Below, one piece after another: positions 6,314-50,295 of a DNA stretch of 64,000 nucleotides; the stretch's first letter is position 1; each line of letters begins with the position of its first letter. A program made the translations under genes and the position numbers. The stretch lies in IMG/VR virus record IMGVR_UViG_3300010354_012181, positions 1-64,000 of that record; one strand, written 5' to 3'. The notes under the pieces were generated by a model. It was not told the origin of the DNA. It searched no databases and saw only the letters and a list, made by a program, of their open reading frames with translations. This DNA comes from a virus.

Positions 6314-6352
6314 GATTTCGCTCCAAGATTTACATTTGTATTTAAGTTCTTC

Positions 6353-6381: not shown

Positions 6382-6407
6382 ATGCGTATATTTCAGAAAG
6401 TTTTATT

Positions 6408-7836: not shown

Positions 7837-7865
7837 TTGACAAAATTTTCAAAATATGTTATAAT
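7837..7865 (+). promoter_or_regulatory. sigma70-type promoter
   Basis: TTGACA (7837-7842), 17 bp, TATAAT (7860-7865), extended by TG at -14. It begins directly after the preceding stop codon and reads into the 7889 gene, which has an AAGGA ribosome site. Confidence 0.85.
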
Positions 7866-7888
7866 GCATAAACTTACAAGGAATTAAA

Positions 7889-9292: not shown

Positions 9293-9570
9293 ATAATTAC
9301 AATATAGTAGGAGACAGAATAGAAGAATGTAGAGAAGTTATAGTGCATTCTTTTTCTATGGGAGATGTTGAGGATCCAGATCTCTATGCTGCCCAACCGT
9401 TATGCGAATGGGAACACAGTGAACTGGGACAGTGGGTGATGCAAAATGCAGTTGAGACTCCTACTTGGCACAGAATGGTGGATCAAACATCCTTCGGATA
9501 TAAGTATCAGATTCGAGCCAAACTAATGGGCCCTGCACTGACAGAATGGTTTTTAAGATACGGTAAATGA
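9289..9570 (+). CDS. tandem small protein, copy 3 (divergent)
   Basis: A 93-residue protein starting at GTG 9289 (GTGA overlap) or ATG 9283. It is the most divergent copy: the middle carries WEHSELGQWVMQN and the tail reads ALTEWFLRYG in place of FSLRW. It keeps size, position and overlapping ends. It may be a different family that adopted the same spot; confidence in homology is modest. Confidence 0.6.
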   Translation: MNNYNIVGDRIEECREVIVHSFSMGDVEDPDLYAAQPLCEWEHSELGQWVMQNAVETPTWHRMVDQTSFGYKYQIRAKLMGPALTEWFLRYGK

Positions 9571-27261: not shown

Positions 27262-27291
27262 AGATATATACAGAAGTAAGATATTTATTTT

Positions 27292-28191
27292 ATGAAATTA
27301 ATCCTAATTATTATTTTCTTTTTTGTATCTATTAATTTGGCAATAGGTAGTGAAATAGAATTTACTGTCCATCACGGTCCAGGCGGACCTAGTGATAAAT
27401 TAACTAGACTTTTAGTTGCTCAAATGCCAAAAAAATACCTACCTGTTAATCGTCCGGGGGCACAGGGAAGAATTGCTGTTAGACATCTATTGAACAATAA
27501 TGCTATTATGATAGCCACAACTGCACAGATTTTTGTCACTAATTTTATAGATAATGATATGTCTGTTTATAAACAAGATGATTTAGAAATAATATATGTA
27601 GTCGGTATAATGCCTAGTGTTTTGGTGTGCAATAATAAATTAGGATTTAAAACTTATAAGGAATTTATAGCAAATAATCGGTCACTTTCTTTTGGAGTGG
27701 CTGGATACGGAAGTTCGGAACATCTAGCAACTGAAATTTTATTTAAAGAATTTAAAAATAATCATGTAATTATTCCTTACCCGCAAGGAGGCGCACACAG
27801 TTTAAATGATTTACTTAGTGGACACATAGATTGTATGTTTGCAAACTATCCATTAGTTAAAGAACATATTAAGGATGGCACAAAGATTACCACGTTAATG
27901 TCTAGTCATGATCTTAAATTACCAATACCAACGTGGCAACAAATAAACAAAACATCGTTTCCTTATCAAAGTTACCTTGCTATAGTTGCTAATAAAAAAA
28001 TGCTATCAGAATTACAAAAAGATATTATAAATGATCTGAACAATTCATATTCAGATAAATTAAAAGAAGATTTGATACAGGTTGGTATTTTTCCAATTAT
28101 GTCAAAAGACAAAAATTCAATTTTAGAAGTATATCGAGATAACGATAAATTAAAATCTTTTTTACTAAAAAATAATATTAAGATAAATTGA
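27292..28191 (+). CDS. Bug/TctC-family periplasmic binding protein
   Basis: A 299-residue exported protein: signal peptide (about residues 1-19), then VHHGPGGPSDKLTRLL and VNRPGAQGRIAVRHLL, both typical of tripartite tricarboxylate transporter receptors (Bug family), which bind carboxylates, aromatic acids or amino-acid amides in the periplasm. No membrane permease gene is in the window, so it would have to serve a host transporter or act as a ligand sink. Its stop overlaps the TTG start of the next gene. A second Bug protein is at 41493. Confidence 0.82.
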   Translation: MKLILIIIFFFVSINLAIGSEIEFTVHHGPGGPSDKLTRLLVAQMPKKYLPVNRPGAQGRIAVRHLLNNNAIMIATTAQIFVTNFIDNDMSVYKQDDLEIIYVVGIMPSVLVCNNKLGFKTYKEFIANNRSLSFGVAGYGSSEHLATEILFKEFKNNHVIIPYPQGGAHSLNDLLSGHIDCMFANYPLVKEHIKDGTKITTLMSSHDLKLPIPTWQQINKTSFPYQSYLAIVANKKMLSELQKDIINDLNNSYSDKLKEDLIQVGIFPIMSKDKNSILEVYRDNDKLKSFLLKNNIKIN

Positions 28192-29099
28192 TAAAACATC
28201 AAGATTTTTTTCATACTAGATATCCTATCGTATGTGCCTCTATGAATAGAGTTAGCGATGTCAAATTAGCTGTGGCTTGTTATCATGCAGATATACTGCC
28301 AAGTTTTACAGTTTATAATTGGATTCAAAAAGACTTTCAATTTTCTTTTGATTTTGTTCAAGCAGACAAAGATTTAAAAGAGTTTCAAGATAAAACTGGA
28401 TCAAATAATTTAATGCTTTCAATAGGAACTGCCGAAATAGGAATTCCGCAAATGGTCGATTTAATATTAAAGAATAAAATAAAATTCCTTGAAATTTTTG
28501 GTAGAGAGGACGAAGGTTTAAAAAGTATTTCCGCTCACGATTATGAGATCTATGACATTTATAAAAAAAATGATATAAAAATTATTCCAAAACAGTTGTC
28601 AGGAAAACACGCTAATAACATAGGAATGGATGCTATATTATTAAAGGGTAGAGATGGCGCAGGAAGAAGTTTAAGTTATATTGATATTGATACTGAAATT
28701 ATAAACATACTTGGAAAATACCCAACGTTGCCTATAATAATATCTGGTGGTATAGGCAATGCCGGGGACATAAAAAAATATATGAGTATGGGCTGTATGT
28801 CTGTAGCGATAGGAACACTTTTTGCTGCCAGCGAAGAGAGTTGTTTAAGTTTGGAAACTAAAAAGAAAATGGTCGAGGCAAGCAGTACTGATATTTCTAG
28901 ACTCTCCACTGGTGCTCAACAGAATGCTTTAGTTTTTCGCAAAATGGATTGGCAGGATGATTTTAATAATACTAGGTCTTTAATGCAAGGAATAATAAAT
29001 CCAGAGGCAGGCCATGTTTTTGCAGGGAAAGGAATAAACGATGTAAAATCTATTATGCCGGTAAAGGATATAGTTCAACAATTAGTAGAAGGTTTGTGA
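28188..29099 (+). CDS. nitronate monooxygenase-like FMN TIM-barrel protein
   Basis: A 303-residue protein. The N-terminal YPIVCASMNRVSD aligns with the FMN-binding start of the nitronate monooxygenase/2-nitropropane dioxygenase family, so I use the TTG start at 28188 that overlaps the preceding stop (TTGA); the next ATG would remove this motif. IISGGIGNAGDIKKYMSMG and VAIGTLFAAS form the phosphate-binding end of the barrel. These enzymes oxidise nitronates or act as FMN oxidoreductases. Coupled to a Bug receptor, it may act on the imported compound. Confidence 0.75.
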   Translation: MIKHQDFFHTRYPIVCASMNRVSDVKLAVACYHADILPSFTVYNWIQKDFQFSFDFVQADKDLKEFQDKTGSNNLMLSIGTAEIGIPQMVDLILKNKIKFLEIFGREDEGLKSISAHDYEIYDIYKKNDIKIIPKQLSGKHANNIGMDAILLKGRDGAGRSLSYIDIDTEIINILGKYPTLPIIISGGIGNAGDIKKYMSMGCMSVAIGTLFAASEESCLSLETKKKMVEASSTDISRLSTGAQQNALVFRKMDWQDDFNNTRSLMQGIINPEAGHVFAGKGINDVKSIMPVKDIVQQLVEGL

Positions 29100-29998
29100 A
29101 TAGTCTGGTAGAATCTTTTAGTTTCATTAGTAGTTGTAAGTAAAAAATTTAAAAAAGGTTTCAACGGAATCATAAGAGCGTGTTCTTTGATTTTTAATTC
29201 TGTAAGCATAAAAGGTATATTTTCAAATCCAGCCCACTTTGGAAAATATAAAAGTTCATCTTTCCAATATTTTCCGTATATTAAAGGTTTAATATAATAA
29301 TCCCATCTATCTGTGGTGTCTAAGTATACGTGAGGAAATTCCGGACCCTTTGTTAACCCATTACCTTTAAAATATGGCCACGAATAGATACAGGACCACA
29401 GAACCTCTTCACTTAATATACTGGATAAGAATTCGCTAGTGTCACCAAAAAATATAAATTTGCCTTTTCTATTTAATAATTCAAAAGCTCTATGTCTAAC
29501 CATTTCAAAAGAATTGTATCCTTGAAACCAATAAGGTTCATTTTGCGGGGTTATATGTACATATGGATCATGAACCATCTGTACAAAGTCATAATCGTCT
29601 GGTAATAAACTTAAAAACTTTTTTTGTAAAATTGAGTTTATTTGTATGTCGTATAATTCTGCTTCTTCTTCCAACTCGTCTTTGATCTTTAAAACATTAA
29701 TATCTATGATGTGCGCCTTTATGTTATATTTGTCTTCAACTAATTTTAAATTTTTGTATTCGTGATCGTTGAATCCCGGAAGGTACAAAAATGCACATTC
29801 AACAGGTATATCTTGTTGTTGAAAACTCAACAACATACTTTGGCTATCAATACCGCCACTAAGACTTAGCATAATTTTTTTACTAGTTTGTCCAATTTCT
29901 AATGCTCGTTTATCTGACTCTTCCCTCATGTTTCCAGGCGACCATCTACAGGATTGATATTCTATCCACCATTTTCCATTATCGAAACCATAAATCAT
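29075..29998 (-). CDS. PP-loop ATPase-like protein (asparagine-synthetase type)
   Basis: A 307-residue protein with a canonical PP-loop SGGIDS at residues 47-52 (KIMLSLSGGIDSQSM). An asparagine-synthetase-like domain without glutaminase; the middle contains FVQMVHDPYVHITPQ and KFIFFGDTSEFLSS, which could shape the acceptor pocket. It ends convergently on the nitronate-monooxygenase-like gene (25 nt overlap) and starts divergently from 30045 across a shared palindromic promoter-like motif. Confidence 0.72.
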   Translation of the reverse strand: MIYGFDNGKWWIEYQSCRWSPGNMREESDKRALEIGQTSKKIMLSLSGGIDSQSMLLSFQQQDIPVECAFLYLPGFNDHEYKNLKLVEDKYNIKAHIIDINVLKIKDELEEEAELYDIQINSILQKKFLSLLPDDYDFVQMVHDPYVHITPQNEPYWFQGYNSFEMVRHRAFELLNRKGKFIFFGDTSEFLSSILSEEVLWSCIYSWPYFKGNGLTKGPEFPHVYLDTTDRWDYYIKPLIYGKYWKDELLYFPKWAGFENIPFMLTELKIKEHALMIPLKPFLNFLLTTTNETKRFYQTIHKPSTNC

Positions 29999-30019
29999 AA
30001 AGTGCCCTTATTTTTGTGT

Positions 30020-30029
30020 TAAATATTTA
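30020..30029. promoter_or_regulatory. palindromic TAAATATTTA between divergent PP-loop genes
   Basis: TAAATATTTA reads as a late-type AAATA motif on both strands (TTAAATA on plus, GTAAATA on minus). It lies 22 nt from the minus start (29998) and 16 nt from the plus start (30045). Confidence 0.45.
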
Positions 30030-30044
30030 CTCAAAGGTGTACTG

Positions 30045-31214
30045 ATGATTAATGTAATTGATGAAAAACTAGGGTACTATCATGCAGGCGGACAAAAATT
30101 TAGTTCAAAAATTGCCGCAGCCTTACATTCTATAAAAACAAATACAAAATTACATTGGAATTTCAATGATGAAATTTTTAGCAAACATGATTGGTCAAAA
30201 GAACCTTTGTCAACATTAGACGAATTGTATGACGCTAGGTCTAGAGAACTACGAGAAAAATACGATTATCTGATTTTAAGTTATAGCGGAGGATCAGATA
30301 GTCATAACATACTAATGAGCTTTATTAGACAAGGACTTCATTTAGATGAAATAATAATAAATCATATGAATAAGGCCAATGACCAATTCACTGATTTGAA
30401 TCCTACTAATAAAAATAGCACAAACGCAGCAGCCGAATTTCATCTTCAAACATTGCCAAGATTAAAAGAAGTTGAAAATTTAATACCTCAAACAAAAATA
30501 ACTATTTTAGATTTAACTGATTATCTTTTTCAATCATTAGAAAAAATAGGTGATGCTAGTTGGGTGCTAGATAAAAAAGAGCAGGTTAACATAGCAGGTA
30601 TGACACGGTTTAATTATATTTTCTTCGATGACATAAGAAAGAATTTTGATAAGGGACGAAAATTAGGTTTAATTACAGGTTTAGAAAAACCCAGATCGTT
30701 TATAGAAAACGGAGAGTATCATTTGCTTTTTACAGATAGACCTGCTAACATCATAACAGTTAAAGAACATATGCATGAATATACAAACTGTTCTGTAGAA
30801 ATGTTCTACTGGAGTCCTAGTCCTATAGCAATACAAATTATGACTAAACAGGCTCATACAATTAAAAAATATTTAGAAATGTTTCCACAAAAACAAGAAC
30901 TGTGGAAAATAGAAAGACTTCATAGTGGTACAATGATTAGGATCATACACGAAAGGATTTTGCGTACATTGTTGTATACTACTTGGGACAATAATTGGTA
31001 CCAGGCCGATAAAGCTATTAAAGACTGGCATAGTGAATTTGACCAATGGTTTTTTGATCATTATACTGATACAAAAACTTTTCATATTTGGAAAGAAGGC
31101 ATAGATTACTTAAAAAATAATCTTTCCTCTTTAATAAAATACGATGACAATACAGCAGATGGATTAGTTCCATTTCATAAAAAATACAAAGTAGGACCTA
31201 TTAAAAGATATTAA
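30045..31214 (+). CDS. PP-loop ATPase-like protein, long subtype
   Basis: A 389-residue protein with SGGSDS at residues 81-86, paralogous to the protein at 26104-27261. Shared features are the YHAGGQKFSSKIAAALHSIK-like N-terminus, the REKYDYLILSYSGG lead-in, the EMFYWSPSP segment and the TWDNNWYQ segment. It probably adenylates a substrate for amide or C-N bond formation. The Rieske gene begins 2 nt after its stop, so the two are likely cotranscribed. Confidence 0.73.
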   Translation: MINVIDEKLGYYHAGGQKFSSKIAAALHSIKTNTKLHWNFNDEIFSKHDWSKEPLSTLDELYDARSRELREKYDYLILSYSGGSDSHNILMSFIRQGLHLDEIIINHMNKANDQFTDLNPTNKNSTNAAAEFHLQTLPRLKEVENLIPQTKITILDLTDYLFQSLEKIGDASWVLDKKEQVNIAGMTRFNYIFFDDIRKNFDKGRKLGLITGLEKPRSFIENGEYHLLFTDRPANIITVKEHMHEYTNCSVEMFYWSPSPIAIQIMTKQAHTIKKYLEMFPQKQELWKIERLHSGTMIRIIHERILRTLLYTTWDNNWYQADKAIKDWHSEFDQWFFDHYTDTKTFHIWKEGIDYLKNNLSSLIKYDDNTADGLVPFHKKYKVGPIKRY

Positions 31215-31216
31215 AA

Positions 31217-32047
31217 ATGAATAATATTAATAGTAAATATCCTAAAGTTTTTACGCACAAAGGTGTATTCAAAAATAATAACTTTTATGGCAGCAGTCAA
31301 TTTGTCATAAACAAAGACCTACAACTGTTTTCTAATAGATGTCCGCATAGGGGTAATAAGATCATATCTCCGGGAACTGTTAAGCAAGAATTTAAGTGCG
31401 GACTTCACGGTTGGCAATGGAACGAAAATGGATCACCTATTAATAATTCTGTAAATTTAAGATCAACTTATGCTACTTTGGGGGGAAGCGGGTTAATATA
31501 TTTAGATTGGAATGAGCCGTCATCGGCGAAATGGGTTCATGATCTTTCTTCCGATGATTTACAATTTGATCACTGCATCAAAAAACATGGGCATGGAGAT
31601 TGGCGATGGCAGATGGAAATGCATGTAGATTTATTACACGTTCAATTTATACATCCATTGTTAAACAATTACGTTGATTGTAATAAATTAATTTCAGAAA
31701 AGGGGTACGACTGGATAGCACAATATCATGATCACGGATGGTGGTTGTTTATCTATCCCTTTACTCATATCGAATGGGAACCTGGATGCTTGTACTTTAG
31801 TGAAATGGTGCCGAGAGAAAATAATCTAGGTTATGACGTTTTTATACATTATCTTTTTTCTCCTAAAATTTCTGAAGAAAAAAAACGAGATTTTTCTATG
31901 ATGGCCGAAATCACCTTCGATGAAGATATTAACGCTGTAAACGAGATTTCAAGCACATCAAAATATAGAATGCCTAGTAATGCGAAACATCCGTTAGAGC
32001 AAGATATAATTCATTTCTATAAATGGTTGGAGGACAATACCGAATGA
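31217..32047 (+). CDS. Rieske-type non-heme iron oxygenase
   Basis: A 276-residue protein with a Rieske [2Fe-2S] site Cys42-x-His44 (RCPHRG) and Cys61-x2-His64 (CGLHGW), and a mononuclear iron site Asp138, His141, His146 (VDLLHVQFIH), with a further acidic residue near 237 (DEDINA). This is the catalytic plan of ring-hydroxylating and related oxygenases, though shorter than usual (alpha subunits are often 400 or more). A reductase is not in the window and would come from the host. It sits between PP-loop and GNAT-like genes. Confidence 0.85.
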   Translation: MNNINSKYPKVFTHKGVFKNNNFYGSSQFVINKDLQLFSNRCPHRGNKIISPGTVKQEFKCGLHGWQWNENGSPINNSVNLRSTYATLGGSGLIYLDWNEPSSAKWVHDLSSDDLQFDHCIKKHGHGDWRWQMEMHVDLLHVQFIHPLLNNYVDCNKLISEKGYDWIAQYHDHGWWLFIYPFTHIEWEPGCLYFSEMVPRENNLGYDVFIHYLFSPKISEEKKRDFSMMAEITFDEDINAVNEISSTSKYRMPSNAKHPLEQDIIHFYKWLEDNTE

Positions 32048-32514
32048 GAATAGAAATTGTTGGAAATGAAAGAGATAGAGCAGATAATGAATTAATTATA
32101 AAACACAGTGATCTTCTTTCCTATACACCGGCCTATAGTTTTTTTCTTAAGGAAATGGCTAATTTAATCGATTCCGGCAATCATATTGGATATACTTATT
32201 GGGATGATAAAAATTGCGGAATTATTTGGGCAGAAAACGTTGATAATAAAGTTGTAGGAATTTTAGTATATGATCGATCATTTACTAAAAGTAGAATACC
32301 TTGTCTTTATATAGTTCTTACTGCGGTTGATATTAATTATAGACAGTTAGGTATACATATAATTATGAACAAATATTTTGAGAGACAGGTACAGAAACTA
32401 AATTGCCAAGGAATAAAATCTGAAATAAGTTTAAAAAATAAAATACGATTACTTACAGCAGAGAGAGATCAATTAGTTCCATATGCATTTGTTGTTTCTA
32501 AAAAAATATCATGA
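32044..32514 (+). CDS. GNAT-like acetyltransferase
   Basis: A 156-residue protein, ATGA-coupled to the Rieske gene at 32044. Segments IIWAENVDNKVVGILVYDRS and LYIVLTAVDINYRQLGIHII resemble GNAT strands 2-4 and the acetyl-CoA-binding helix start, though the R/Q-x-x-G-x-G/A loop is weak (RQLGIH). Function could be N-acylation of a pathway intermediate. Its stop overlaps the next gene. Confidence 0.55.
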   Translation: MRIEIVGNERDRADNELIIKHSDLLSYTPAYSFFLKEMANLIDSGNHIGYTYWDDKNCGIIWAENVDNKVVGILVYDRSFTKSRIPCLYIVLTAVDINYRQLGIHIIMNKYFERQVQKLNCQGIKSEISLKNKIRLLTAERDQLVPYAFVVSKKIS

Positions 32515-32948
32515 CAATTAAAGAAAATATAAAATTAGTTGAAAGCGATATCTATTCGATCTTGAAAAATAAAGTAAAAGAGCGTATAGAATACCTAATA
32601 AATTTAGGATACAGCGAAAATCTTGCTAGATTTTTTACTGATATAGATGAGGATAATACTGCCGTAATTTGGAATGATGATAAAAATTCTATTACTGCTA
32701 TACTTTGTTATACGATTAATGATATAGATAAAGGCGGGGTATTAATTAATTTTAGTTACGCCAAAGATGCTGTTAGTTTAGAACAAGTTTATAATTATTT
32801 TGAAAAAAAAGTAAAGGCATTAAGATGCGTTTATATAAACGAACACGTTCCTATTAAAGATCATAGACGGCTTACTGAATTGGAAAATTTAAGTTTCGAA
32901 AAAAAATATTATCTATTGTTCAAAAGAGTGCAAAATGTTACGCTATAA
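32511..32948 (+). CDS. GNAT-like protein, possibly inactive
   Basis: A 145-residue protein coupled (ATGA) to the previous GNAT-like gene and similar in plan: helix, AVIWNDDKNSITAILCY, then GVLINFSYAKDAV. The acetyl-CoA loop cannot be seen. It may be a degenerate duplicate or a partner subunit. The next PP-loop gene starts inside its end. Confidence 0.5.
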   Translation: MTIKENIKLVESDIYSILKNKVKERIEYLINLGYSENLARFFTDIDEDNTAVIWNDDKNSITAILCYTINDIDKGGVLINFSYAKDAVSLEQVYNYFEKKVKALRCVYINEHVPIKDHRRLTELENLSFEKKYYLLFKRVQNVTL

Positions 32949-33885
32949 AAATTGGATGTCCTATAAGTTTGACGATGGTATTTTGTTAGGACCCAAAAAA
33001 ACGAAACAATCGATATTCAAGTTAGAATTTTCTAAAAATATCGACTGCAAAGAAATGGATTACTTTTCTGCCTTAGAATATAATGCACGAATGGTTGCCG
33101 ATAATTATCCACAACCCTTTGATGTTTTATTATCGGGCGGAATAGATAGCGAAGTAATAGTTAGAATGAATCACAAATTAGGAATAAAACAAAATGTTTA
33201 TACCTTTAGATTAGAAAATGATTATAATATAAAAGATGTGCTGTCTTCTCAGATAATATGTAATGATTTAAATATTGATCTTAAAATTATAGATTGGAAC
33301 CTACAAAAATGGATAGAAAATGATGCCGAATCAGTTTATAAAAAAACCTACTCTCCATTGATAGAAAGAATGGTGCGGTTTGATTGGTTAAAATACTTTG
33401 ATAATATAATAGTAATGGGAGAAGGAGAACCTTATTGGAGAAGAGATTTTTCTGATGATTATAATAAGAAATCACACTGGCATCTGCACTGGACCGAAGA
33501 TTATTTTATGACCTCTATATATGCCAATTTGATAGGTCAGACTGTAATGGGAGAATGGTACAATTATACCCCAGAAGTAGTAAAGTCCTTTCATAAAATG
33601 CCTATAGTTAAAAAATTATTGAACGATGAATTTAAAGGTAAACAGAGTTCTTGGAGTATTAGAACAGAAATTCACCAAAAAATTTTTCCGGAAATTAGAC
33701 CAAAATTTAAATTAGTAGGATACGAAGGATTCAATTATCCATTTACGAAACCGGAATTTATGACTACGTTTCAGAAAGAAATAATAGGCGATACTACAAA
33801 CTATGGATATAAATTCCACGAAAGCGATATAGATAATATGTGTGGTGGTCTTGCAGTAGGCGAAGGATGTTGGGTAAAATATTAA
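32935..33885 (+). CDS. PP-loop ATPase-like protein (asparagine-synthetase type)
   Basis: A 316-residue protein with a canonical SGGIDS at residues 67-72 (FDVLLSGGIDSEVIV). A Trp/His-rich middle (WHLHWTEDYFM) and C-terminal GGLAVGEGCW are distinctive. It is similar in layout to the 296-residue protein at 25233, but with intact Asp. It overlaps the GNAT-like gene by 14 nt and is followed directly by the 183-residue gene. Confidence 0.72.
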   Translation: MLRYKNWMSYKFDDGILLGPKKTKQSIFKLEFSKNIDCKEMDYFSALEYNARMVADNYPQPFDVLLSGGIDSEVIVRMNHKLGIKQNVYTFRLENDYNIKDVLSSQIICNDLNIDLKIIDWNLQKWIENDAESVYKKTYSPLIERMVRFDWLKYFDNIIVMGEGEPYWRRDFSDDYNKKSHWHLHWTEDYFMTSIYANLIGQTVMGEWYNYTPEVVKSFHKMPIVKKLLNDEFKGKQSSWSIRTEIHQKIFPEIRPKFKLVGYEGFNYPFTKPEFMTTFQKEIIGDTTNYGYKFHESDIDNMCGGLAVGEGCWVKY

Positions 33886-33886
33886 A

Positions 33887-34438
33887 ATGAAATCTGTAAC
33901 ATGGAAACCCGGAGAAAACAAAGAATTAGATAATTTGTTTGATAAGTTACGAGAACAGCAATATCAAAATCGAAACCATAGACTATGGAAAAATTACAGT
34001 AAAGATGAAATAGAAAAATGGTCTGGTTTGATAGCCTATACTATTTCTTTTGACTATAATGATCAACCGGAATTATGTTCAACTATTTCTAAGAGAAATT
34101 GTTGGCCGGACAATGCCTGCAGAATATTAAACAGGACTTGGAAAGTATCAAATAAAAAACAAATTATGCCCGAAATTAGCCAGGCTATGGGTAAGGCAAC
34201 ATTAAGTCAGATATCTTGGTTAAAAGAAAACACAGATTATCAATTTTATTTTATAAGCAGACAAACTAATAACTGGATGGAATGGGTAACTAAAAATTTT
34301 AAAAGGCAGTTTGACTTAAATTTCAAAATTGCCAAAAATAAATATCTTACATGTTCAAATGAACACGATGATTCTTGTTGGCAAAGTATCATTTACATAG
34401 GGGATGATTCTGTGCTAAAAATCTGGAAAAAGAGATGA
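33887..34438 (+). CDS. hypothetical protein in island operon
   Basis: A 183-residue basic, Trp-rich protein (WKPGENKELDNLFDKLREQQ start, later KATLSQISWLKENTDYQFYF and NNWMEWVTKNFKRQFD). The second half has a strand-helix order reminiscent of acyltransferase folds, but I cannot assign it. It starts 1 nt after the PP-loop gene and overlaps the desaturase start by 4 nt, so it belongs to the same transcript. Confidence 0.6.
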   Translation: MKSVTWKPGENKELDNLFDKLREQQYQNRNHRLWKNYSKDEIEKWSGLIAYTISFDYNDQPELCSTISKRNCWPDNACRILNRTWKVSNKKQIMPEISQAMGKATLSQISWLKENTDYQFYFISRQTNNWMEWVTKNFKRQFDLNFKIAKNKYLTCSNEHDDSCWQSIIYIGDDSVLKIWKKR

Positions 34439-35232
34439 AACAAATAATAAAAAATATATTATCTTTAAAACACCTTTGGGGAGGCATAATCCCTTTACAT
34501 ATTTTTGGAATATATTCCATCTATGTTTTATCCGTAGGATCCGCACCCGACTGGTGGTGGATAGCCACGCTGATTGGATGGTTTTTTATGAAATTCGTAG
34601 GAATAGGGGCTGGATTTCATAGACTTTTCAGTCACAAAGGTTTTGAAGTTAGTAAATTTATGAAAAGATTTATTTTGTTTTGGGGAACTATAGCAGTGCA
34701 AGGAAGTGCTATTTTATGGGTTGGGATACACAGAGGGGCGCACCATAGGCATAGCGACACTGATTTAGACCCACACAGCCCCAAACATGGATTTTGGCAT
34801 AGTTATATTTTGTGGATGTTTACTTTAAAAGAAGGCGAAGTAAGCGTAAGGCAAGTTCCCGATTTGCTGAGAGATACGGATATGGTTTTTACGCACAAGT
34901 ATTATTCAGAAATTTTATGGATAATTTATGGCATAGTTGCTTTAATAAGTTTTGATTTATTTTTATATCTTTTAATATTGCCTGCTCTTATAACTCTACA
35001 TGTATTTTGCCTACAAACAAGTGTAGTTCATTACGAAAAACTTGGATACAGAAATTATGAAACCAAAGATTCAAGCGCCAATATACCTTGGTTATTTCTA
35101 TTGACACAGGGAGAATGTTGGCATAATAATCATCACGGCGATCCAAAAAATCCTAATTATGGAGGAAGGCGTTGGTGGGAATTAGATCCAACTTACTTTG
35201 TTATACGATTAATAAGAACAGATGTTAATTGA
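34435..35232 (+). CDS. acyl-lipid/acyl-CoA delta-9-type desaturase
   Basis: A 265-residue membrane protein with the three histidine boxes of stearoyl-CoA-type desaturases: HRLFSH (62-67), HRGAHHRHSD (99-108) and HNNHHGD (230-236), plus four membrane helices. GAGFHRLFSHKGF is characteristic of the family. It would introduce a double bond in a fatty acyl chain. ATGA-coupled to the gene before, and overlapping the QueC-like gene after it. Confidence 0.87.
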   Translation: MKQIIKNILSLKHLWGGIIPLHIFGIYSIYVLSVGSAPDWWWIATLIGWFFMKFVGIGAGFHRLFSHKGFEVSKFMKRFILFWGTIAVQGSAILWVGIHRGAHHRHSDTDLDPHSPKHGFWHSYILWMFTLKEGEVSVRQVPDLLRDTDMVFTHKYYSEILWIIYGIVALISFDLFLYLLILPALITLHVFCLQTSVVHYEKLGYRNYETKDSSANIPWLFLLTQGECWHNNHHGDPKNPNYGGRRWWELDPTYFVIRLIRTDVN

Positions 35233-35854
35233 ATCAAAACTCGACGATAAAAAAATAGTAATAGAATTATTTAAAAATAATAGATATGGTATTATGCTGT
35301 CTGGGGGTTTAGATAGTGCAATTTTACTATCGTTGATTCTCATAGAAAGCCAAAAATCAAAAAGTGCAATAAATTTACAACCGTTTAGTATGATTAAAAA
35401 TGATCATTCATACAAATATGTTAATAATATCATAGACAGAATTAATGATCAATTTAAGTCTACAATCGCACAAACTATATTAATAGGCGATCCATCCATT
35501 AATCATAAAGAACAAAGTTTATATGCAACTAAACAAGTTTTCCGAGAACATAGATATATAGATTTTCTTTTTAATGCTGTAAATCAAAATCCACCTGCTC
35601 CTTGGGGTGAACCCCATTATCTATTTCCAGATAGAGTAAAAGAATCTCCTCACCCTAAAATCATTATGCCATTTGTGCATTTAACAAAAAAACACATAGT
35701 CGATATAATGTTTCAATATAATTTAGAATTTTTATGCGACATTACACACTCCTGCACTGAGTATAAAATTGGCAGATGTAATCTTTGTTTTCAATGCAAT
35801 GAAAGAAAATGGGCTTTTGAAGAGTTAGAAAAAGTAGATTCAGGTACTTTATGA
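35222..35854 (+). CDS. QueC-like PP-loop protein
   Basis: A 210-residue protein with SGGLDS at residues 27-32 and a C-terminal zinc-type cluster Cys178, Cys186, Cys189, Cys192 (THSC...GRCNLCFQCNERKWAFE), the signature of QueC (7-cyano-7-deazaguanine synthase). QueC turns the carboxylate of CDG into a nitrile via an amide. It differs from the other PP-loop proteins of the island. A QueD-like gene exists at 51909, but no FolE or QueE is in the window, so a preQ0 route is only possible, not shown. Confidence 0.7.
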   Translation: MLIESKLDDKKIVIELFKNNRYGIMLSGGLDSAILLSLILIESQKSKSAINLQPFSMIKNDHSYKYVNNIIDRINDQFKSTIAQTILIGDPSINHKEQSLYATKQVFREHRYIDFLFNAVNQNPPAPWGEPHYLFPDRVKESPHPKIIMPFVHLTKKHIVDIMFQYNLEFLCDITHSCTEYKIGRCNLCFQCNERKWAFEELEKVDSGTL

Positions 35855-39672: not shown

Positions 39673-39999
39673 ATGCCCTGGATAGTACAAAGTGTATATA
39701 AAAGGCCAAATAAAGATGTAATTTGGCACACCCAGGCTTTTGATAAAAATTCAGTAAGCCTAAGTTTCGCATCTTGGTCAATGAAGGTGTGTTTATTTGG
39801 CCGTAGAAGGACTGAAAACGAAATCGACGAACTTACATTACAAATACAGACTGTTTGGCAAACGAAAGAAGAATACGATGAATTTATGTCTATTCCTTCA
39901 GTAAAAGAGCATTTTAATAACGTGGCTTTATATAACGCTAATATGGGCATTAAGACTGAACCAAAGTTAGAGTTTTATAATGATCCAATAAATCCTTAA
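39673..39999 (+). CDS. hypothetical protein
   Basis: A 108-residue protein (PWIVQSVYKRPNKDVIWHTQ start). The alternation of strands and a central helix (ENEIDELTLQIQTVWQTKEE) could fit a small ferredoxin-like (ABM-type) fold, but there is no diagnostic residue. Isolated between the oxygenase run and the beta-barrel gene; a two-way terminator follows. Confidence 0.6.
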   Translation: MPWIVQSVYKRPNKDVIWHTQAFDKNSVSLSFASWSMKVCLFGRRRTENEIDELTLQIQTVWQTKEEYDEFMSIPSVKEHFNNVALYNANMGIKTEPKLEFYNDPINP

Positions 40000-40029
40000 A
40001 AAAAGGACTCATAAAGAGTCCTTTTTTTG
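40000..40029. terminator. bidirectional intrinsic terminator
   Basis: Hairpin AAAAGGACTC/GAGTCCTTTT with A-run on one side and T-run on the other, placed between convergent genes ending at 39999 and 40045. Confidence 0.85.
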
Positions 40030-40044: not shown

Positions 40045-40602
40045 TTAATGAAATCTTCTAGTGAAACTTAAACCATATATTCTTTGCTCAATAGTTCCAT
40101 CAACTATGTAATAAGCAAGACCTATTTGATTTTTCTTATCTAAATTATAATTTAAGCCTGCTCTCCATGTTCTGGTTTGATCGTTTTTACCTTCCTGAAA
40201 AGAAGATCTAAATCTCCAACCAAGGGTAGAAACAAATCCACTGTTTCCTAAAGGCAAAGCAAAACTAGGATTAATTGAATAATAGGCATAGTTTCCAGTC
40301 GTGGCATTACCTGAATATCTTTCTCCTATGGCTGCACGAACAGAAAAACCAGAATCAAATGTACGCATAACTCCTGCCTCTAATCTATTAGAAACTGCCT
40401 GCGTACTATCTACTTTGAGTCCAGTGACTGCTATATCGCCAAACCAATTTTTTGTAATGCTATCGCGCACAGTAACCACTACTGCTTTCATGTCTGATAC
40501 TCCATTTTTGCTGTCTAGGTCTTGAAGTTCAACATTAATAGACTGTGCCTGTGCAGCTGCAGAAAAAATAGCAATCACAATCGCTGCGGTAAATTTAAAC
40601 AT
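40045..40602 (-). CDS. outer-membrane beta-barrel protein
   Basis: A 185-residue protein with a signal peptide (MFKFTAAIVIAIFSAAAQA) and alternating strands typical of an 8- to 10-stranded outer-membrane barrel (WRAGLNYNLDKKNQIGLAYY). The end GLSFTRRFH has the aromatic pattern recognised by the BAM complex, with a terminal His after Phe. A phage gene of this kind could alter receptors or block superinfection; this is inference. A GGAG site lies upstream (minus strand). Confidence 0.75.
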   Translation of the reverse strand: MFKFTAAIVIAIFSAAAQAQSINVELQDLDSKNGVSDMKAVVVTVRDSITKNWFGDIAVTGLKVDSTQAVSNRLEAGVMRTFDSGFSVRAAIGERYSGNATTGNYAYYSINPSFALPLGNSGFVSTLGWRFRSSFQEGKNDQTRTWRAGLNYNLDKKNQIGLAYYIVDGTIEQRIYGLSFTRRFH

Positions 40603-40645: not shown

Positions 40646-41503
40646 TTACTTACGATTAATTATGAAATCCTCATCGTTTATGATTTCTTTATTATATTCA
40701 TAATTTTGAGGAATCCAATCTTGATTTAAAATATCTGAATCTGCAGAATATTCTATCATAAAATTAGATGGAGTATTGAAGTACCAATATGTGGCTGATG
40801 AAATATTATGCCTCCCAGGACCTTTAGCAGTTCTCCAGCCAGACCTCTGCATGTGTTGTCCGCCTGCAAATAGTTCATATATATCTCCCACGGAAAATGC
40901 TATATGATGTAGACCTTTATCTTCCGACTGTATTAGAAAAAGTCTATGATGATAATCCAATGCAGCGGCACGTAAAAATATTCCTCTGTTTAATAACCTG
41001 TCGCTGACAACAAAGCCCAGGTCAGTATAAAATTTTTCTGCTGTTTCTATATCATCTGAGAATAAAACAACATGAGCGATCTCATATGGATATGCTCTTT
41101 CATATTTTTTCACAGGAGAATTAATTCTAACATTGTTACCTAATGAATTAGTGGCTGTTCCCCGATTTTCCGAGATTGTTTTAGAAAACTGCTCTAAAAT
41201 AATCGTATAATCATGACAATCCTTTAGAGATATTTTATTCTCTATTGGTCTAAAATCTTTATAGTTTATTCTGTTTGAAATTAAAACTGCACAGACAAGA
41301 TCTATATCATCTACGTACCAAGTAATAGAATTAAATTCATCTTTGCAATCACTATTTAAGGTAATAGAAGATCCATCTAAAGTTTTAAAAATATAATTGT
41401 CTATAGTCTGTAATCCGAAATCCGATAAGAAGGACACAGTTTTGTCAACATCATTAACTGATATCGATATATCTTTTATTCCCTTGATATTATTATTCAA
41501 CAT
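40646..41503 (-). CDS. extradiol dioxygenase-like VOC-family protein
   Basis: A 285-residue two-domain vicinal-oxygen-chelate protein of catechol 2,3-dioxygenase type. The second domain keeps the metal triad: His144 (EIAHVVLF), His200 (GLHHIAFSVG) and Glu251 (NFMIEYSAD), as well as FYTDLGF. Such enzymes cleave catechol-type rings using Fe(II). Its neighbours upstream encode a Bug receptor, an FAD monooxygenase and a 2-oxoglutarate oxygenase, all in one tight minus-strand operon. Confidence 0.82.
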   Translation of the reverse strand: MLNNNIKGIKDISISVNDVDKTVSFLSDFGLQTIDNYIFKTLDGSSITLNSDCKDEFNSITWYVDDIDLVCAVLISNRINYKDFRPIENKISLKDCHDYTIILEQFSKTISENRGTATNSLGNNVRINSPVKKYERAYPYEIAHVVLFSDDIETAEKFYTDLGFVVSDRLLNRGIFLRAAALDYHHRLFLIQSEDKGLHHIAFSVGDIYELFAGGQHMQRSGWRTAKGPGRHNISSATYWYFNTPSNFMIEYSADSDILNQDWIPQNYEYNKEIINDEDFIINRK

Positions 41504-42470
41504 TTACAATGATTTTAAATTTTTTAATATTATTATCAAACTTATTATACAAATTTCTAAATGCTGTTTCCATGTCTTTAGGAGAACCTCCAGCAGTTGA
41601 ATAGGCAAGTCCGCTAAATTTTGTCCTAACTTCTTGATCTTTTAATATTTCATTTATATGATAATTCAATGAATTAACAATATTGCTATTCATACCAGCA
41701 GGACCCATTAGAGCGAACCATCCTGAAAAATCTGCAGGAGTTAATCCTGTCTCGGAAAGTGTGGGAATTTCCGGTGCAAATTGACTTCTTTTGTCTGAAG
41801 CAACAGCTATTACATTGACCTTTTTACTTTCTATCGCAGAGATAACCGGAAATAATCCAGTTATCATCATTGAAACTTCATTAGATAATAGAGCAGTAAC
41901 CGCAGGAAAATTTCCTCTATAGGGTACCTGAACAATATCTAAACCTAATTCTTTCTTATAGTATTCTCCAACCATGTTCATCGGACTGCCACTACCGGGC
42001 GTAGCGTATGATCTTATTCTTCCTTGTTTTATCGCATCAATTAACTCTTTATTTGTTCTAACATTTGTTGAACTGTTTACTACTATAAAAAGATTTGTTT
42101 CTCTGATGACTTTTACTATTGGCGTGAAATCTTTGAAAATATCATATGAAATTCTATCACCTAGAACAAATTTAGAAGTTATAATCGTGCTAGGTGTTAA
42201 CAACAGAGTGTATCCGTCAGGTTTAGATTCTGCTACGAATCTATTACCTATAGTTCCGCTGGCTCCTGATTTATTAAGGACTAACACATTTTGATTTATT
42301 CTTTTAGATAATTTTTCTGCTAATACTCTTGCGATCACATCTGTATCTCCTCCCGTAGGAAACGAAACTACAATAGTTATGGGTCTATCAAATGTAACAT
42401 TAGCAAATACAGCAGGAGATATTAACAATAATAAAACAAATGCTGCTAATCTATTTCTAAAAATTTTCAT
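41493..42470 (-). CDS. Bug/TctC-family periplasmic binding protein
   Basis: A 325-residue exported receptor: signal peptide to about residue 23 (AVFANVTF), then the family motifs PITIVVSFPTGGDTDVIAR, NKSGASGTIGNRFVA, ATPGSGSPMNM and GWFALMGPAG. It is full length and closer to the Bug consensus than the 27292 copy. The family binds carboxylates and aromatic acids. It overlaps the dioxygenase gene by 11 nt and touches the monooxygenase gene. Confidence 0.88.
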   Translation of the reverse strand: MKIFRNRLAAFVLLLLISPAVFANVTFDRPITIVVSFPTGGDTDVIARVLAEKLSKRINQNVLVLNKSGASGTIGNRFVAESKPDGYTLLLTPSTIITSKFVLGDRISYDIFKDFTPIVKVIRETNLFIVVNSSTNVRTNKELIDAIKQGRIRSYATPGSGSPMNMVGEYYKKELGLDIVQVPYRGNFPAVTALLSNEVSMMITGLFPVISAIESKKVNVIAVASDKRSQFAPEIPTLSETGLTPADFSGWFALMGPAGMNSNIVNSLNYHINEILKDQEVRTKFSGLAYSTAGGSPKDMETAFRNLYNKFDNNIKKFKIIVNVE

Positions 42471-42471
42471 A

Positions 42472-43620
42472 TCAATTCTTTCCTAATAAATCGTTCGGTA
42501 AAATAAAATTTTTTTCATTCAAATAAAAATCATCTACTTTGCTTTGACTAATTTTTAAGTCAAAATTATCTTTAGATTTAAACCCTAAACCAATTTGGCG
42601 ACACTGGGTTTGAACATATCTTGCTATATCATAACGGTAGTCAACATACATTTTCAGCACATTGTCGAGATTGCTATCTAAATTCAAAAGTTGTGTTAAT
42701 GTAGCAGCGTCCTGCAAAGCCTGAGCACCCCCCTGTGCCATGAAAGGCAACGATGCATGAGCCGAGTCACCTATAAACACTATGTTTCCTTTGTTCCATG
42801 GTTTAGGAAGATTAACTTCTTCCACACAGGTAAAATTTACATGAGTCAAAGAATCTATTTCATCTATTATTTCTTTAACCAGTCCATTACAATGAGATGA
42901 AAATTTTTCTTTCATTGCCGCAGGCTGCTGTTCTATTGGTATTTTATACTTAGATTCTTCCGGCATCGCTGCCCAAGTATACATGTATTCATTATCTAAA
43001 GGCACAAAACCTAATCTGAAACCATCACCTATTACAATTATTTTTTCATTTATTTCAGGACGCCTTAAATGTAAACTATGCCAGAGTCCGAAGTTAGTAA
43101 AAACTGACTGCTGATTTTTAAAAAGATGCTGTCTAATAGAAGAGTTGGTACCGTCTGCTGCTATTATCAAATCATAGTTATCCGAAATTCCATTATTCAA
43201 ACTTACTTTAGAATTTAAATATCCGTTCAAAGTTTCATTTAATATAAAACAATTAAAATGAAATTTAACTTTATAGCGGCTTGCTGTTTTATATAATATT
43301 TTTAAAAACTCATATCGATTAATCCCGACATAAGAAGGATATTTCTTTTCTATAGAAGGAAAATAAACTTTTCCTAATAATTTAGAATCATAACTCCAAA
43401 ATTCTGTATCTCCAGATAAAGTACAGCCTTTCAACAATATTTTGTCTAAGACTCCGATATAATCTAAACATTTAAGAGCATTACTGTATAATACTATACC
43501 AGCACCCCTAGTAAAAATATTAGATTTTTTTTCTACAACCGTAACATTATGTCCTTGCTGTGATAAGGCAGCGGCAACATAACAACCTGCGATACCTGCT
43601 CCTTGAATTAAAATTTTCAT
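42472..43620 (-). CDS. FAD-dependent aromatic-type monooxygenase (salicylate-hydroxylase-like)
   Basis: A 382-residue flavoprotein of the group A hydroxylase type: N-terminal GAGIAG dinucleotide motif (7-12) followed by VVEKK, a DG motif (IIAADGTNSSIR), and the flavin motif GDSAHASLPFMAQGG near residue 285. These enzymes hydroxylate aromatic acids using NAD(P)H and O2. It lies one base from its neighbours on both sides in a minus-strand operon with an extradiol-dioxygenase-like gene and a Bug receptor. Confidence 0.87.
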   Translation of the reverse strand: MKILIQGAGIAGCYVAAALSQQGHNVTVVEKKSNIFTRGAGIVLYSNALKCLDYIGVLDKILLKGCTLSGDTEFWSYDSKLLGKVYFPSIEKKYPSYVGINRYEFLKILYKTASRYKVKFHFNCFILNETLNGYLNSKVSLNNGISDNYDLIIAADGTNSSIRQHLFKNQQSVFTNFGLWHSLHLRRPEINEKIIVIGDGFRLGFVPLDNEYMYTWAAMPEESKYKIPIEQQPAAMKEKFSSHCNGLVKEIIDEIDSLTHVNFTCVEEVNLPKPWNKGNIVFIGDSAHASLPFMAQGGAQALQDAATLTQLLNLDSNLDNVLKMYVDYRYDIARYVQTQCRQIGLGFKSKDNFDLKISQSKVDDFYLNEKNFILPNDLLGKN

Positions 43621-43621
43621 T

Positions 43622-44401
43622 TTAAATTTTATGTAAAGAATCGTAAGTAGATTCTATGAGAATTTTATCTGTTTCATCAGTTCTTACACCAGTAATTACG
43701 AAAATTATTCTAGGAGATCTGCTCATGTTCACAGTGCTATGCGGAACATTAAGAGTATCGAATATATGTACGTCGCCCGCTCTCCAATTGGTGTATACAT
43801 AATTTCCGTAAACCATCACTTGACCTGGTTCATAATCCTGTAATGTTACAACCATTCTAGTGACTTTATGGGGTGCTGCTGGATATCTATGCCATAATTT
43901 GTCTATATGCATAGGAAAAGTCTGACCAGGAAATTGTGTATGAATTCTAGTTCTACAACGTTTCAACTGCCAATAGTCAGCCATTTTTTTCAAAACAGGA
44001 TGATCTGCTATGAGAGGTTCTGGAACAACCTGGGTAAATTCTATGCCACCAAATTCTTTTCTATCATAATGTTCTTGTTCTAAGAGAGGACTCTTTCCTC
44101 CAGGGAATCCGGGATGAGCTTGTTTGTCTGTTAATTCATTCCAGCCTATTTTTTTTGATTCCTCAATCAAAAAAGGATAAAGATCCAGCAAAGATTTTTT
44201 ATCTTCATCGTTCCAATCATATCTACCTAATCTAGAAAAATATTCCCCTTCTTGATCTTGTTTCCATTTATCAAAATGATAATTAGAAAATTTATCCTTG
44301 ATATATTCAAAATTACTCTTATAACCAGTAGAGTCTTGGTATTGAAAATCTAAAGGTAAAGAATGGAATTTAGCTCTGTTTTCAAAAATTTTTGGATTCA
44401 T
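43622..44401 (-). CDS. 2-oxoglutarate/Fe(II) oxygenase-like protein
   Basis: A 259-residue protein with iron site FPMHIDKLWHRYP and distal VPHSTVNMSRSPRIIFVITG, where Arg binds 2-oxoglutarate; the GYVYTNWRAGDVHIFDT-like strand between them fits the fold. It belongs to the Asp/Asn hydroxylase-like group. Second gene of the aromatic-type operon. Its start overlaps the end of the small gene before it. Confidence 0.75.
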   Translation of the reverse strand: MNPKIFENRAKFHSLPLDFQYQDSTGYKSNFEYIKDKFSNYHFDKWKQDQEGEYFSRLGRYDWNDEDKKSLLDLYPFLIEESKKIGWNELTDKQAHPGFPGGKSPLLEQEHYDRKEFGGIEFTQVVPEPLIADHPVLKKMADYWQLKRCRTRIHTQFPGQTFPMHIDKLWHRYPAAPHKVTRMVVTLQDYEPGQVMVYGNYVYTNWRAGDVHIFDTLNVPHSTVNMSRSPRIIFVITGVRTDETDKILIESTYDSLHKI

Positions 44402-44586
44402 AAATTCTCTTTAGTTTGATATGAAATGACTATTAACCAATCTATAAGATCAGTTTCATCTTCGTCCGGCACGCCCTTAATTCCGTCATAAGAAATAAGA
44501 ACTTTACACCTAGGTCGAGCGGCATCATCCGGTGCTACTGGACCAGTTTTCCAAATTCTTGGTTTCATTTTTACTGTTTCTGACAT
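44398..44586 (-). CDS. small protein heading the minus-strand oxidation operon
   Basis: A 62-residue protein (KMKPRIWKTGPVAPDDAARP..., then LISYDGIKGVPDEDETDLID). No family recognised. It overlaps the oxygenase gene start by 4 nt, so it is coupled. It could be a small regulator or subunit; nothing in the sequence tells. Confidence 0.55.
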   Translation of the reverse strand: MSETVKMKPRIWKTGPVAPDDAARPRCKVLISYDGIKGVPDEDETDLIDWLIVISYQTKENL

Positions 44587-44673: not shown

Positions 44674-44783
44674 GTGGTCGTGAGTGGAACAGGCAGACCT
44701 CCGGTCCGTTGCGAAACGCACTTGGGAATGGGGCGCCGTCTTAGACACAGCCTTTGTAGGTTCGAATCCTACCGACCACACCA
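44674..44783 (+). tRNA. tRNA-like RNA of undetermined isotype (110 nt)
   Basis: Acceptor GTGGTCG/CGACCAC, T arm GTAGG-TTCGAAT-CCTAC, CCA encoded, and a Leu-like D arm (GAGTGGAACAGGCAGAC). Between D and T arms lie far more bases than in a normal tRNA, including a TGCG-AAA-CGCA hairpin. The only anticodon-like arm is GCCGT-CTTAGAC-ACAGC (TAG, one mismatch), but it sits too far from the D arm. It may be a tRNA with an insertion or a tRNA mimic. Confidence 0.55.
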
Positions 44784-44826
44784 GATTCTATTATAAGTAG
44801 AATACTACTAACTAAAAGGAAACATT

Positions 44827-49077: not shown

Positions 49078-49107
49078 ATATATTAAACAACATTAGGAGT
49101 GATATCT

Positions 49108-50295
49108 ATGCCCAAATTGGCTACTAAAACTCGTATTACTAAAAAGCACGTAGCAGATCATCGCGCCAAATCTAATAGAGATATGAGTCCTCGGTGGGAC
49201 GGTTCAGAGGAATGGAGTGGAGAAAAATTCACAGCCCATTTTAGAACCGCTATGGAATATTATAGGCTAGAGTATTCTGCTAAAGATCTTAAGCCTAAGG
49301 TCATCGAATGGATGAAAACACAAGGATGGAATCCCGATTCTATTTTGGCTTTTAAAAAGACCAAAGATAATCGCTGTTCTGGAACTATGGGAGGATTGGC
49401 TGCTTGTATGCTTCGCGGTATGCCTGAAATACATCAAGGTTTTAATAACGGAAGAGATTCTGCAAAATGGTTAGAAGATGCTATTAATCAAGTTATCAGC
49501 GAAGGCATAGATGATTACGAATTAGAAGAAAAATCTGGTGAACAGCCATCGGTTCCTGTAATGTCAATTCAGGACAGAGTTAAAGAAGCCACCTTTACTA
49601 TGACTGAGGAGATTGAAGATGCTATTGAGTCGTTCAGTGCCGATCCTGAAGCATTTGATCCTAAGGCATTTAAAATGCTCAATCTCCTAAAAGGAAAACA
49701 AGCCAAGGCGGCTCACGCTCGTATTATTCGAGATTACTATCAACCGCAGTATGACGAATATATGGAATTACAACAGGGTAGTTGCGATCAACTTAAAGAA
49801 GCATACAGTCATCTTAGCAAGGCGCAGATTAAAAAGATCGTTACTTTTTACAGCGAGATCCTTTCAGCCTGCGATATGCTTATGCAGGAGGCCAAGGTCA
49901 ATCGTAAGCCACGTGCTAAAAAATCAAAACCAGTAGAAAAAATCGTAGAAAAGCTCAAATACCTTAAACAGGATGCAGGACTAAAACTGGTTTCTATTAA
50001 CCCTGTGGATATTGTTGGCTGCAAAGAACTTTGGATTTTTAACACCAAAACTCGTAAACTAGGAAAATACGTGGCAGGTGAGTTCTCAGATCTAGGAGTG
50101 AAAGGTACCAGTATCACTGGATTTGACGAGTTTAAATCAGTGCAAAAAACACTGAGAAAACCCGAAGATCAACTTAAAGAATTTAAAAATTCAGGAAAAG
50201 TGGCCCTAAGAAAATTCTTAGAAGATATCAAAGCCGTTGACATCAAACTTAACGGTCGTATCAACGAAGATACTATTCTGCTAAAAACGCTGTAA
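49108..50295 (+). CDS. hypothetical phage protein with helical core
   Basis: A 395-residue protein; start at ATG 49108 after AGGAG (a GTG 9 nt earlier is less likely). The N-terminal 100 residues contain WDGSEEWSGEKFTAHFRTAM, then a helical middle with a Lys-rich linker (RKPRAKKSKPVEKIVEKLKY) and a C-terminal strand domain (LWIFNTKTRKLGKYVAGEFS). This is a conserved aquatic T4-like phage type of unknown role. Confidence 0.72.
   Translation: MPKLATKTRITKKHVADHRAKSNRDMSPRWDGSEEWSGEKFTAHFRTAMEYYRLEYSAKDLKPKVIEWMKTQGWNPDSILAFKKTKDNRCSGTMGGLAACMLRGMPEIHQGFNNGRDSAKWLEDAINQVISEGIDDYELEEKSGEQPSVPVMSIQDRVKEATFTMTEEIEDAIESFSADPEAFDPKAFKMLNLLKGKQAKAAHARIIRDYYQPQYDEYMELQQGSCDQLKEAYSHLSKAQIKKIVTFYSEILSACDMLMQEAKVNRKPRAKKSKPVEKIVEKLKYLKQDAGLKLVSINPVDIVGCKELWIFNTKTRKLGKYVAGEFSDLGVKGTSITGFDEFKSVQKTLRKPEDQLKEFKNSGKVALRKFLEDIKAVDIKLNGRINEDTILLKTL

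Follow-up and report, generated by a model that had tools for sequence, protein, structure and literature searches.

Metabolic genes carried by phages are usually single enzymes of central metabolism. For phages of polluted sites, genes have been proposed to touch aromatics or pollutant-degrading hosts (PMC10284932 and PMC12446147, according to the accessible parts of these papers); those are single genes (ubiE; a cysteine dioxygenase), in contrast to the operon described here, which is predicted to serve both hydroxylation and ring cleavage. It lies in positions 1-64000 (hereafter the window) of the 72449-base IMG/VR virus record IMGVR_UViG_3300010354_012181, the record itself being a fragment. 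The core of the unit is three genes, encoding a flavin adenine dinucleotide (FAD)-dependent monooxygenase, a Bug solute receptor and a two-domain vicinal oxygen chelate (VOC) protein. No phage operon for ring hydroxylation and ring cleavage was found in the open-access literature (including the accessible parts of PMC10284932, PMC9418001 and PMC12446147), a scope that leaves subscription papers and preprints mostly outside; the statement of a first-pass annotation, made from the letters of the window, that no phage is known to be described with this gene set agrees with that search. We consider it likely that the unit carries a bacterial meta-cleavage module in trimmed, phage-borne form. What the computation shows is the gene set and its order, with intact catalytic residues and a predicted fold, its common descent with a bacterial operon, and its reappearance in another phage.

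Two bacterial systems invite comparison. One is an operon of Burkholderiales, Acinetobacter and Klebsiella that encodes NadX, a thiamine pyrophosphate (TPP) enzyme, an aldehyde dehydrogenase (ALDH) and a VOC protein. Its VOC proteins are 33-40% identical to that of the phage over full length, a Bug gene stands beside the VOC gene in 12 of 80 loci, and VOC, FAD and Bug genes are adjacent in one genome (G527); unlike this operon, the phage has no ALDH, NadX, TPP enzyme, hydrolase, cupin or Rieske oxygenase. The other is the FdeE/FdeC type together with an isoflavone cluster (PMC11069340, in its accessible part), where, as in the phage, an FAD hydroxylase is followed by a VOC-type ring-cleaving dioxygenase; unlike this type, the phage set has a Bug receptor, and the phage VOC protein lies outside the clade that we take as this type.

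Five intact minus-strand open reading frames (ORFs) occupy 40646-44586, tightly packed with neighbours overlapping or 1-2 nt apart; this layout points to a single transcription unit, as the first-pass annotation had proposed. From the first gene to the terminator, the features are:

44398..44586, minus strand: 62-amino acid (aa) ORF, the first gene of the unit, of the phage lineage (homologues in related phages)
43622..44401, minus strand: Fe(II)/2-oxoglutarate (2OG) oxygenase-like protein, 259 aa, of the phage lineage (HxD...H motif; 41 viral loci)
42472..43620, minus strand: FAD-dependent aromatic-hydroxylase-type monooxygenase, 382 aa (FAD_binding_3, PRK06847, motifs, tree)
41493..42470, minus strand: Bug/TctC periplasmic solute receptor, 325 aa, signal peptide by eye (TctC; PDB matches; tree)
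40646..41503, minus strand: two-domain VOC protein, type I extradiol dioxygenase-like, 285 aa (Glyoxalase, HpaD, residues, fold)
40045..40602, minus strand: outer-membrane beta-barrel (porin-like) protein, 185 aa, signal peptide by eye, the last gene of the unit (weak Porin_4)
39998..40028, minus strand: probable intrinsic terminator (AGGACTC-TTTAT-GAGTCCT, then a T run)

The beta-barrel gene begins 43 nt downstream of the VOC ORF, and its protein matches Pfam Porin_4 under the cut-off (0.025). The terminator hairpin was seen by eye and is absent from the list of the terminator scan.

The VOC protein matches the Pfam Glyoxalase/VOC family over the cut-off (2.9e-13). Its C-terminal half matches NCBIfam HpaD (1.1e-16) and catechol 2,3-dioxygenase models far under their cut-offs; the scores against the equivalog cut-offs are 60.9/321.4 for HpaD, 48.9/320.2 for catechol 2,3-dioxygenase and 42/366.45 for BphC. 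In HMMER alignments, H144, H200 and E251 align with H155, H214 and E267 of homoprotocatechuate 2,3-dioxygenase (HPCD), which we take to be its metal ligands, and H186, H232 and Y241 align with HPCD H200, H248 and Y257, presumably its catalytic second sphere. All six residues are invariant in 20 of 20 aligned VOC sequences, and likewise in 17 of 17 when the protein of the second phage (L253, described below) is included, which bears out the two-domain extradiol-like protein with an intact His-His-Glu site in the first-pass annotation. The predicted model (pLDDT 89.6) has two VOC-type halves, and its best Foldseek chains are 3b59 (E 1.6e-19), LapB (2e-17) and catechol 2,3-dioxygenase. The marks that it keeps of type I extradiol dioxygenases (catechol 2,3-dioxygenase, HpaD and 3b59) are the two-domain fold, the 2-His-1-Glu site and the second-sphere His/His/Tyr; unlike these enzymes, its N-terminal half was matched by no Pfam model, and the HpaD score is low. 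By residues and predicted fold the protein is type I extradiol dioxygenase-like, and cleavage of a catechol is its predicted activity.

Pfam FAD_binding_3 (PF01494) is matched by the FAD protein at 3.1e-23 (83 bits versus a cut-off of 22), and the nucleotide-binding motifs GxGxxG, DG and GD do not vary across the 13 aligned sequences. The best NCBIfam model is PRK06847 (1.8e-70, 237.8 bits versus a cut-off of 372), followed by PRK06753 and HpxO; two VOC-linked bacterial PRK06847 members score 500 and 520. The predicted model is only fair (pLDDT 70.4), with 3-hydroxybenzoate 6-hydroxylase leading the Foldseek matches. Assignment to the group A aromatic-hydroxylase type holds, with a corresponding predicted activity. 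The first-pass annotation called the protein 'salicylate-hydroxylase type'; the aromatic-hydroxylase part of this name stands, but salicylate is not supported, the score against salicylate 1-monooxygenase (TIGR03219) being 71.2, under the cut-off of 446.35, and the best model being PRK06847.

The same two proteins raise the idea of a detoxification cassette, in which the receptor is only incidental and an antibiotic or a toxic polyphenol is inactivated by the FAD and VOC enzymes, much as by tetracycline destructases and VOC resistance proteins. The FAD protein does match NCBIfam tet_destruct (1.5e-20) and has Tet(51) and Tet(56) among its fold neighbours, and peroxidase-type genes of the AhpC and CMD families adjoin the cassette of the second phage; but the tet_destruct score of 73.5 is far under the cut-off of 550, the VOC protein retains the dioxygenase second sphere, and the linked Bug gene and the bacterial operon favour catabolism. 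We regard detoxification as unlikely.

The receptor matches Pfam TctC (6.4e-45, 154.2 bits versus a cut-off of 27), in agreement with its earlier naming as a Bug solute receptor, and its PDB matches include Bug27 (2.1e-44) and the terephthalate-binding TBP (3.7e-35). Because Burkholderiales carry many Bugs, the fairest test of its link to the VOC operon is where the best match within a genome lies. Twelve genomes were given: three have 0-1 match and nine have 53-150 matches each; the null for each of the nine is one over this number, or a few over it when the several Bugs of the operon are counted. The top match to the phage Bug sits in the VOC operon in six of the nine Bug-rich genomes, all nine of which had been picked for having a Bug near VOC: by comparison of coordinates, it adjoins the VOC gene or is two genes off in G001, G842, G843 and G542, and lies within the operon but 8-13 kb away in G844 and G846. 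The best Bug of G845 is elsewhere, with the second best adjoining operon-type genes, and the VOC-side Bug of G523 and G680 is not the best match. The Bugs of the window and of L253 group (96/88) within the Bugs of VOC loci in a tree of 45 rows, which is not an independent test since its bacterial rows were mostly gathered via VOC loci. The phage-lineage Bugs that adjoin the 2OG gene in relatives form a separate clade (100/100), and we therefore rejected the idea that the window Bug is one of them.

The bacterial counterpart was collected from genome contigs with a two-row VOC alignment, which gave 356 relatives out of 410 candidate stretches; the 80 kept are mainly from Burkholderiales. These 80 loci encode ALDH (71), NadX (69), a TPP enzyme (67), a KshA-type Rieske oxygenase (54), Bug (20, within 500 bp of VOC in 12) and an FAD homologue (five). 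At one locus (L063), for example, NCBIfam identifies a TPP enzyme, an aspartate dehydrogenase, an HpaE/hydroxymuconic-semialdehyde-like dehydrogenase, a reductase and an aromatic-acid/H+ symporter. Judged by its genes, this is a catabolic-type operon, for which we found no paper naming a substrate. In a study of the mucin response (PMC5757984), A. baumannii genes for AspDH, aldehyde dehydrogenase and acetolactate synthase are neighbours by locus tag; the accessible part of the paper gives no pathway. Riboflavin/lumichrome (lum) degradation, an idea that came from the TPP, Rieske and extradiol enzymes, was rejected: the P450 and the molybdoprotein that it requires were not seen.

Searches from the FAD side lead to the same neighbourhoods in part. 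Nine of the 369 genomes of the class of G001 match the window FAD at 1e-25 or better; the best match (L105) has an adjacent VOC gene, and VOC was found in two of the six surroundings fetched. With the FAD of L253 as query, eight of 399 genomes match at 1e-35, four of the eight with VOC in the surroundings. Closest to it are G658 and G527, both with a Bug gene beside the FAD gene. G527 has ALDH, VOC, FAD and Bug genes in a row on one strand (L270), with NadX, TPP enzyme, Rieske oxygenase and hydrolase genes within the same 18 kb. FAD, Bug and VOC relatives thus do share ring-cleavage operons, as had been claimed for bacteria. The FAD and VOC relatives have aromatic-type genes linked to them, so that a placement of these two proteins in non-aromatic subfamilies, raised earlier as a possibility, did not materialise. 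In G658 (L261/L269) a tryptophan-2,3-dioxygenase-like gene, recognised by eye, stands directly before the FAD relative and Bug after it, a hint of tryptophan- or indole-type substrates.

Plasmids bring in a flavonoid alternative. FAD matched in 30 plasmid records and VOC in 58 (40 listed); among the matches listed, the two are less than 600 bp apart in Rhizobium rhizoryzae, Allorhizobium pseudoryzae, Roseinatronobacter and Massilia putida (four records). Similar adjacent FAD and VOC pairs occur in plasmid clusters with Rieske, hydrolase, cyclase and FAH genes, clusters that are presumably of the fde type (FdeC and FdeE sequences are not in the comparison). The phage pair could then be a flavonoid-type A-ring cleavage pair like FdeE/FdeC of Herbaspirillum or the Variovorax isoflavone cluster, since fde/ifc proceed by FAD hydroxylation and then glyoxalase-type dioxygenation (PMC11069340, accessible part). 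The FAD tree (26 rows; nine of 33 bacterial rows were dropped as near copies or repeats) is compatible with this: the FADs of the window, L253 and C. necator pBB1 form one clade (98/98), which is sister to the FADs of the FAD-VOC plasmid clusters (84/94). The pBB1 FAD neighbourhood gave no VOC or Bug match. The VOC tree (47 rows: 44 picked for spread from 91 found, plus the window, L253 and G527) speaks against it: both phage VOCs are outside the clade of the plasmid-cluster VOCs (100/95) and inside that of the NadX-operon VOCs (96/90). A flavonoid-type pair is accordingly an improbable reading, and we keep to the trimmed meta-cleavage module.

Recurrence of the trio was found by scanning viral contigs with the 13-row FAD alignment, where three of 115 stretches were confirmed. 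A 48162-base record (L253) carries the following genes:

5995-7062: FAD monooxygenase
7059-7997: Bug receptor
7990-8754: VOC protein
8836-9393: porin

A search of viruses for co-occurrence of FAD and VOC, suggested in the first-pass annotation, thus returned a phage with both, plus Bug and porin, in the order of the window (FAD-Bug-VOC-porin). After the porin come two peroxidase-type genes (AhpC and CMD families), and then the 62-aa ORF, the 2OG gene and a PP-loop gene. Identities to the window (tblastn) are 31% for FAD, 45% for Bug, 34% for VOC and 46% for the porin, against 60% for the 62-aa ORF, 56% for 2OG and 53% for PP-loop. Since the trio and porin are only 31-46% identical although the cyclase gene of the two phages is 78% identical, the trio either diverged fast or was acquired more than once; its order and catalytic residues are preserved. 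Two further candidates with weak FADs (L254 and L255) were rejected: neither matched VOC, Bug or 2OG, and by eye L254 is next to tail-type genes. The L253 record also has apparent DnaK, Hsp20, heme-oxygenase-like and IscU-like genes (L258; named by eye).

That the trio is passive cargo or an assembly artefact, i.e. functionless host DNA, is very improbable. FAD and VOC do sit on long branches, but the same order occurs in a second record, the catalytic residues are intact at about 33% identity, and the trio has the GC content of the phage island (31.5-32.6% and 31.5%, respectively) and not the 68.7% of two bacterial relatives, so that it is long adapted to the phage. The contig at the operon is phage and not bacterial, so that the earlier concern that it might be bacterial here falls away.

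Other scans returned nothing. The FAD and VOC sequences, each used singly, had no match in viral contigs, nor did FAD in genome contigs; a two-sequence VOC alignment and one of 20 rows likewise found no viral VOC. The 20-row alignment missed even L253, its patterns being too strict, and the absence of other viral VOCs can therefore not be read from these scans. PF01494 run over 30 related virus records gave nothing above the cut-off. Matches named 'Acinetobacter phage MD-2021a' in INPHARED were rejected as phages, the contigs having pgaBC, parE and purine genes and looking bacterial; the MD-2021a records L004 and L005 (CAKLQH02) resemble bacterial chromosome contigs.

The 2OG gene, which the first-pass annotation counted as a pathway member, has a different distribution. 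Its 259-aa product matches only Asp_Arg_Hydrox (Pfam, 0.0094) under the cut-off, and the HxD...H residues (H165, D167 and H221) are invariant in three phages. Relatives were found at 41 viral loci (42 of 119 stretches), none with FAD or VOC in the flanks, and a VOC profile run over the 42 2OG records, L253 among them, matched in L253 only. Membership of the aromatic pathway was therefore rejected, and the 2OG gene is probably a separate phage-lineage gene outside the aromatic module; the earlier interpretation, right for three of the four proteins it named, is partly supported. The 62-aa ORF has no Pfam or PHROG match; a homologue precedes 2OG in seven of the 41 loci, and one occurs in L253 (60%). 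By eye, four phage loci that are probably marine (L231, L238, L248 and L249) have a 2OG relative near a TctC-like receptor and a TctA-like membrane protein, possibly a phage-borne tripartite tricarboxylate transporter.

Around the 2OG gene the cargo changes. The porin-like gene occurs without the trio in L130, L214 and L215, and four relatives hold an enolase-superfamily (MR/MLE) gene downstream of 2OG, convergent with it:

L130:10759-11838: muconate-cycloisomerase-family gene, beside 2OG
L217-L219:10755-11801: muconate-cycloisomerase-family gene, beside 2OG

The L130 gene has muconate cycloisomerase as its best Pfam/NCBIfam model (151.9 versus a cut-off of 334.95), and those of L217-L219 were assigned by eye from sequence likeness. 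Because these four relatives hold another gene there, the trio occupies a variable slot among phage-lineage genes. The slot may be linked to RNA genes: just upstream of the operon, on the plus strand, 44675-44786 is a tRNA-Leu-like element by eye, a call made by neither ARAGORN nor Rfam, and in L253 a tmRNA (5475-5982) lies directly upstream of the FAD gene.

Such a setting admits a further reading, namely that the trio belongs to a phage island (2OG, PP-loop ATPases, desaturases, Rieske, NMO) that builds or modifies a compound instead of degrading one. The 2OG and 62-aa genes head the unit of the trio, the island genes are common to related phages, and the muconate-cycloisomerase-family gene fills the same slot in four relatives; but the island genes occur without the trio in many phages, and the bacterial relatives of the trio are not beside island-type genes. 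We think this quite unlikely. The Rieske protein at 31217, from which three types of ring-active oxygenase had been counted, scores 21.9 bits against a Ring_hydroxyl_A cut-off of 24.9, and its phage relatives adjoin NMO and PP-loop genes at loci without FAD or VOC; that count is not upheld. The region 25233-35854 has several genes for PP-loop ATPase-like proteins, with QueC-type matches and, by eye, SGG-D-S motifs, together with fatty acid desaturase, NMO-like, Rieske and second TctC genes, many of them common to related phages, and could be a phage biosynthetic island.

Several observations weigh against a trimmed meta-cleavage module, to which we now return. Both phage VOCs are on long branches, their position inside the operon clade being unsettled, and the window FAD is likewise a long branch. 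The scores are far under those of the named catabolic equivalogs. Of the 80 kept bacterial VOC loci, just two have an FAD gene no more than 500 bp from VOC, and the one of these two FADs that is in the FAD tree (L067) falls in another clade. ALDH, NadX, TPP enzyme, hydrolase, cupin and operon-type Rieske genes had no tblastn match (1e-3) in the whole 72-kb record, a Pfam scan of 30 window proteins showed no TctA/TctB partner, and the trio is known in two phages only in this analysis. The choice of the nine Bug-rich genomes, noted above, counts on the same side.

The record encodes homologues of tail-fibre, baseplate and thymidylate synthase (ThyX) proteins, and there are 24 tRNA genes in the window. 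For the gene at 49099-50295, 151 relatives were confirmed in viral contigs, and the 80 kept include contigs of up to 356 kb; the record therefore probably represents part of a large phage of myovirus-like type. The label 'freshwater' used below comes from the betaproteobacterial-type relatives and from general knowledge of such contigs. At 2006-4060 the phage has a CHASE2-domain adenylate/guanylate cyclase, 78% identical to that of the L253 record and 77% to that of the L130 record; the L253 copy matches phrog_35576.

The enzyme activities, the direction of flow and the role of the porin we infer as follows. The outer-membrane barrel and the Bug receptor would collect an aromatic compound, most likely a carboxylated one; the FAD enzyme would hydroxylate it beside an existing hydroxyl; and the catechol so formed would be cleaved with O2 by the VOC enzyme to a ring-fission product. 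As the record has no downstream enzymes, either the host must take over this product, its aldehyde dehydrogenase, hydrolase and other enzymes that the phage does not carry completing the breakdown, or the product is simply harmless. The phage may gain extra carbon or energy during infection, or have an inhibitory phenolic removed. More tentatively, large freshwater-type phages might keep a dedicated 2OG-to-barrel slot for aromatic-catabolism cargo, either the barrel-Bug-FAD-VOC set or a muconate-cycloisomerase-family enzyme, and might feed on or disarm dissolved aromatics via the host and spread ring-opening modules among betaproteobacteria.

With good comparative support, the operon appears to be a new variant of phage auxiliary metabolism. 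The phage genes tie to a widespread bacterial ring-cleavage operon, apparently uncharacterised so far as we found, and through this link one assay would be informative for both. If the reading is true, the co-transcribed receptor, hydroxylase and dioxygenase of these two diverged phages would give viruses a direct part in turning over dissolved aromatic carbon of humic, lignin or algal origin, and would make phages carriers of catabolic modules.

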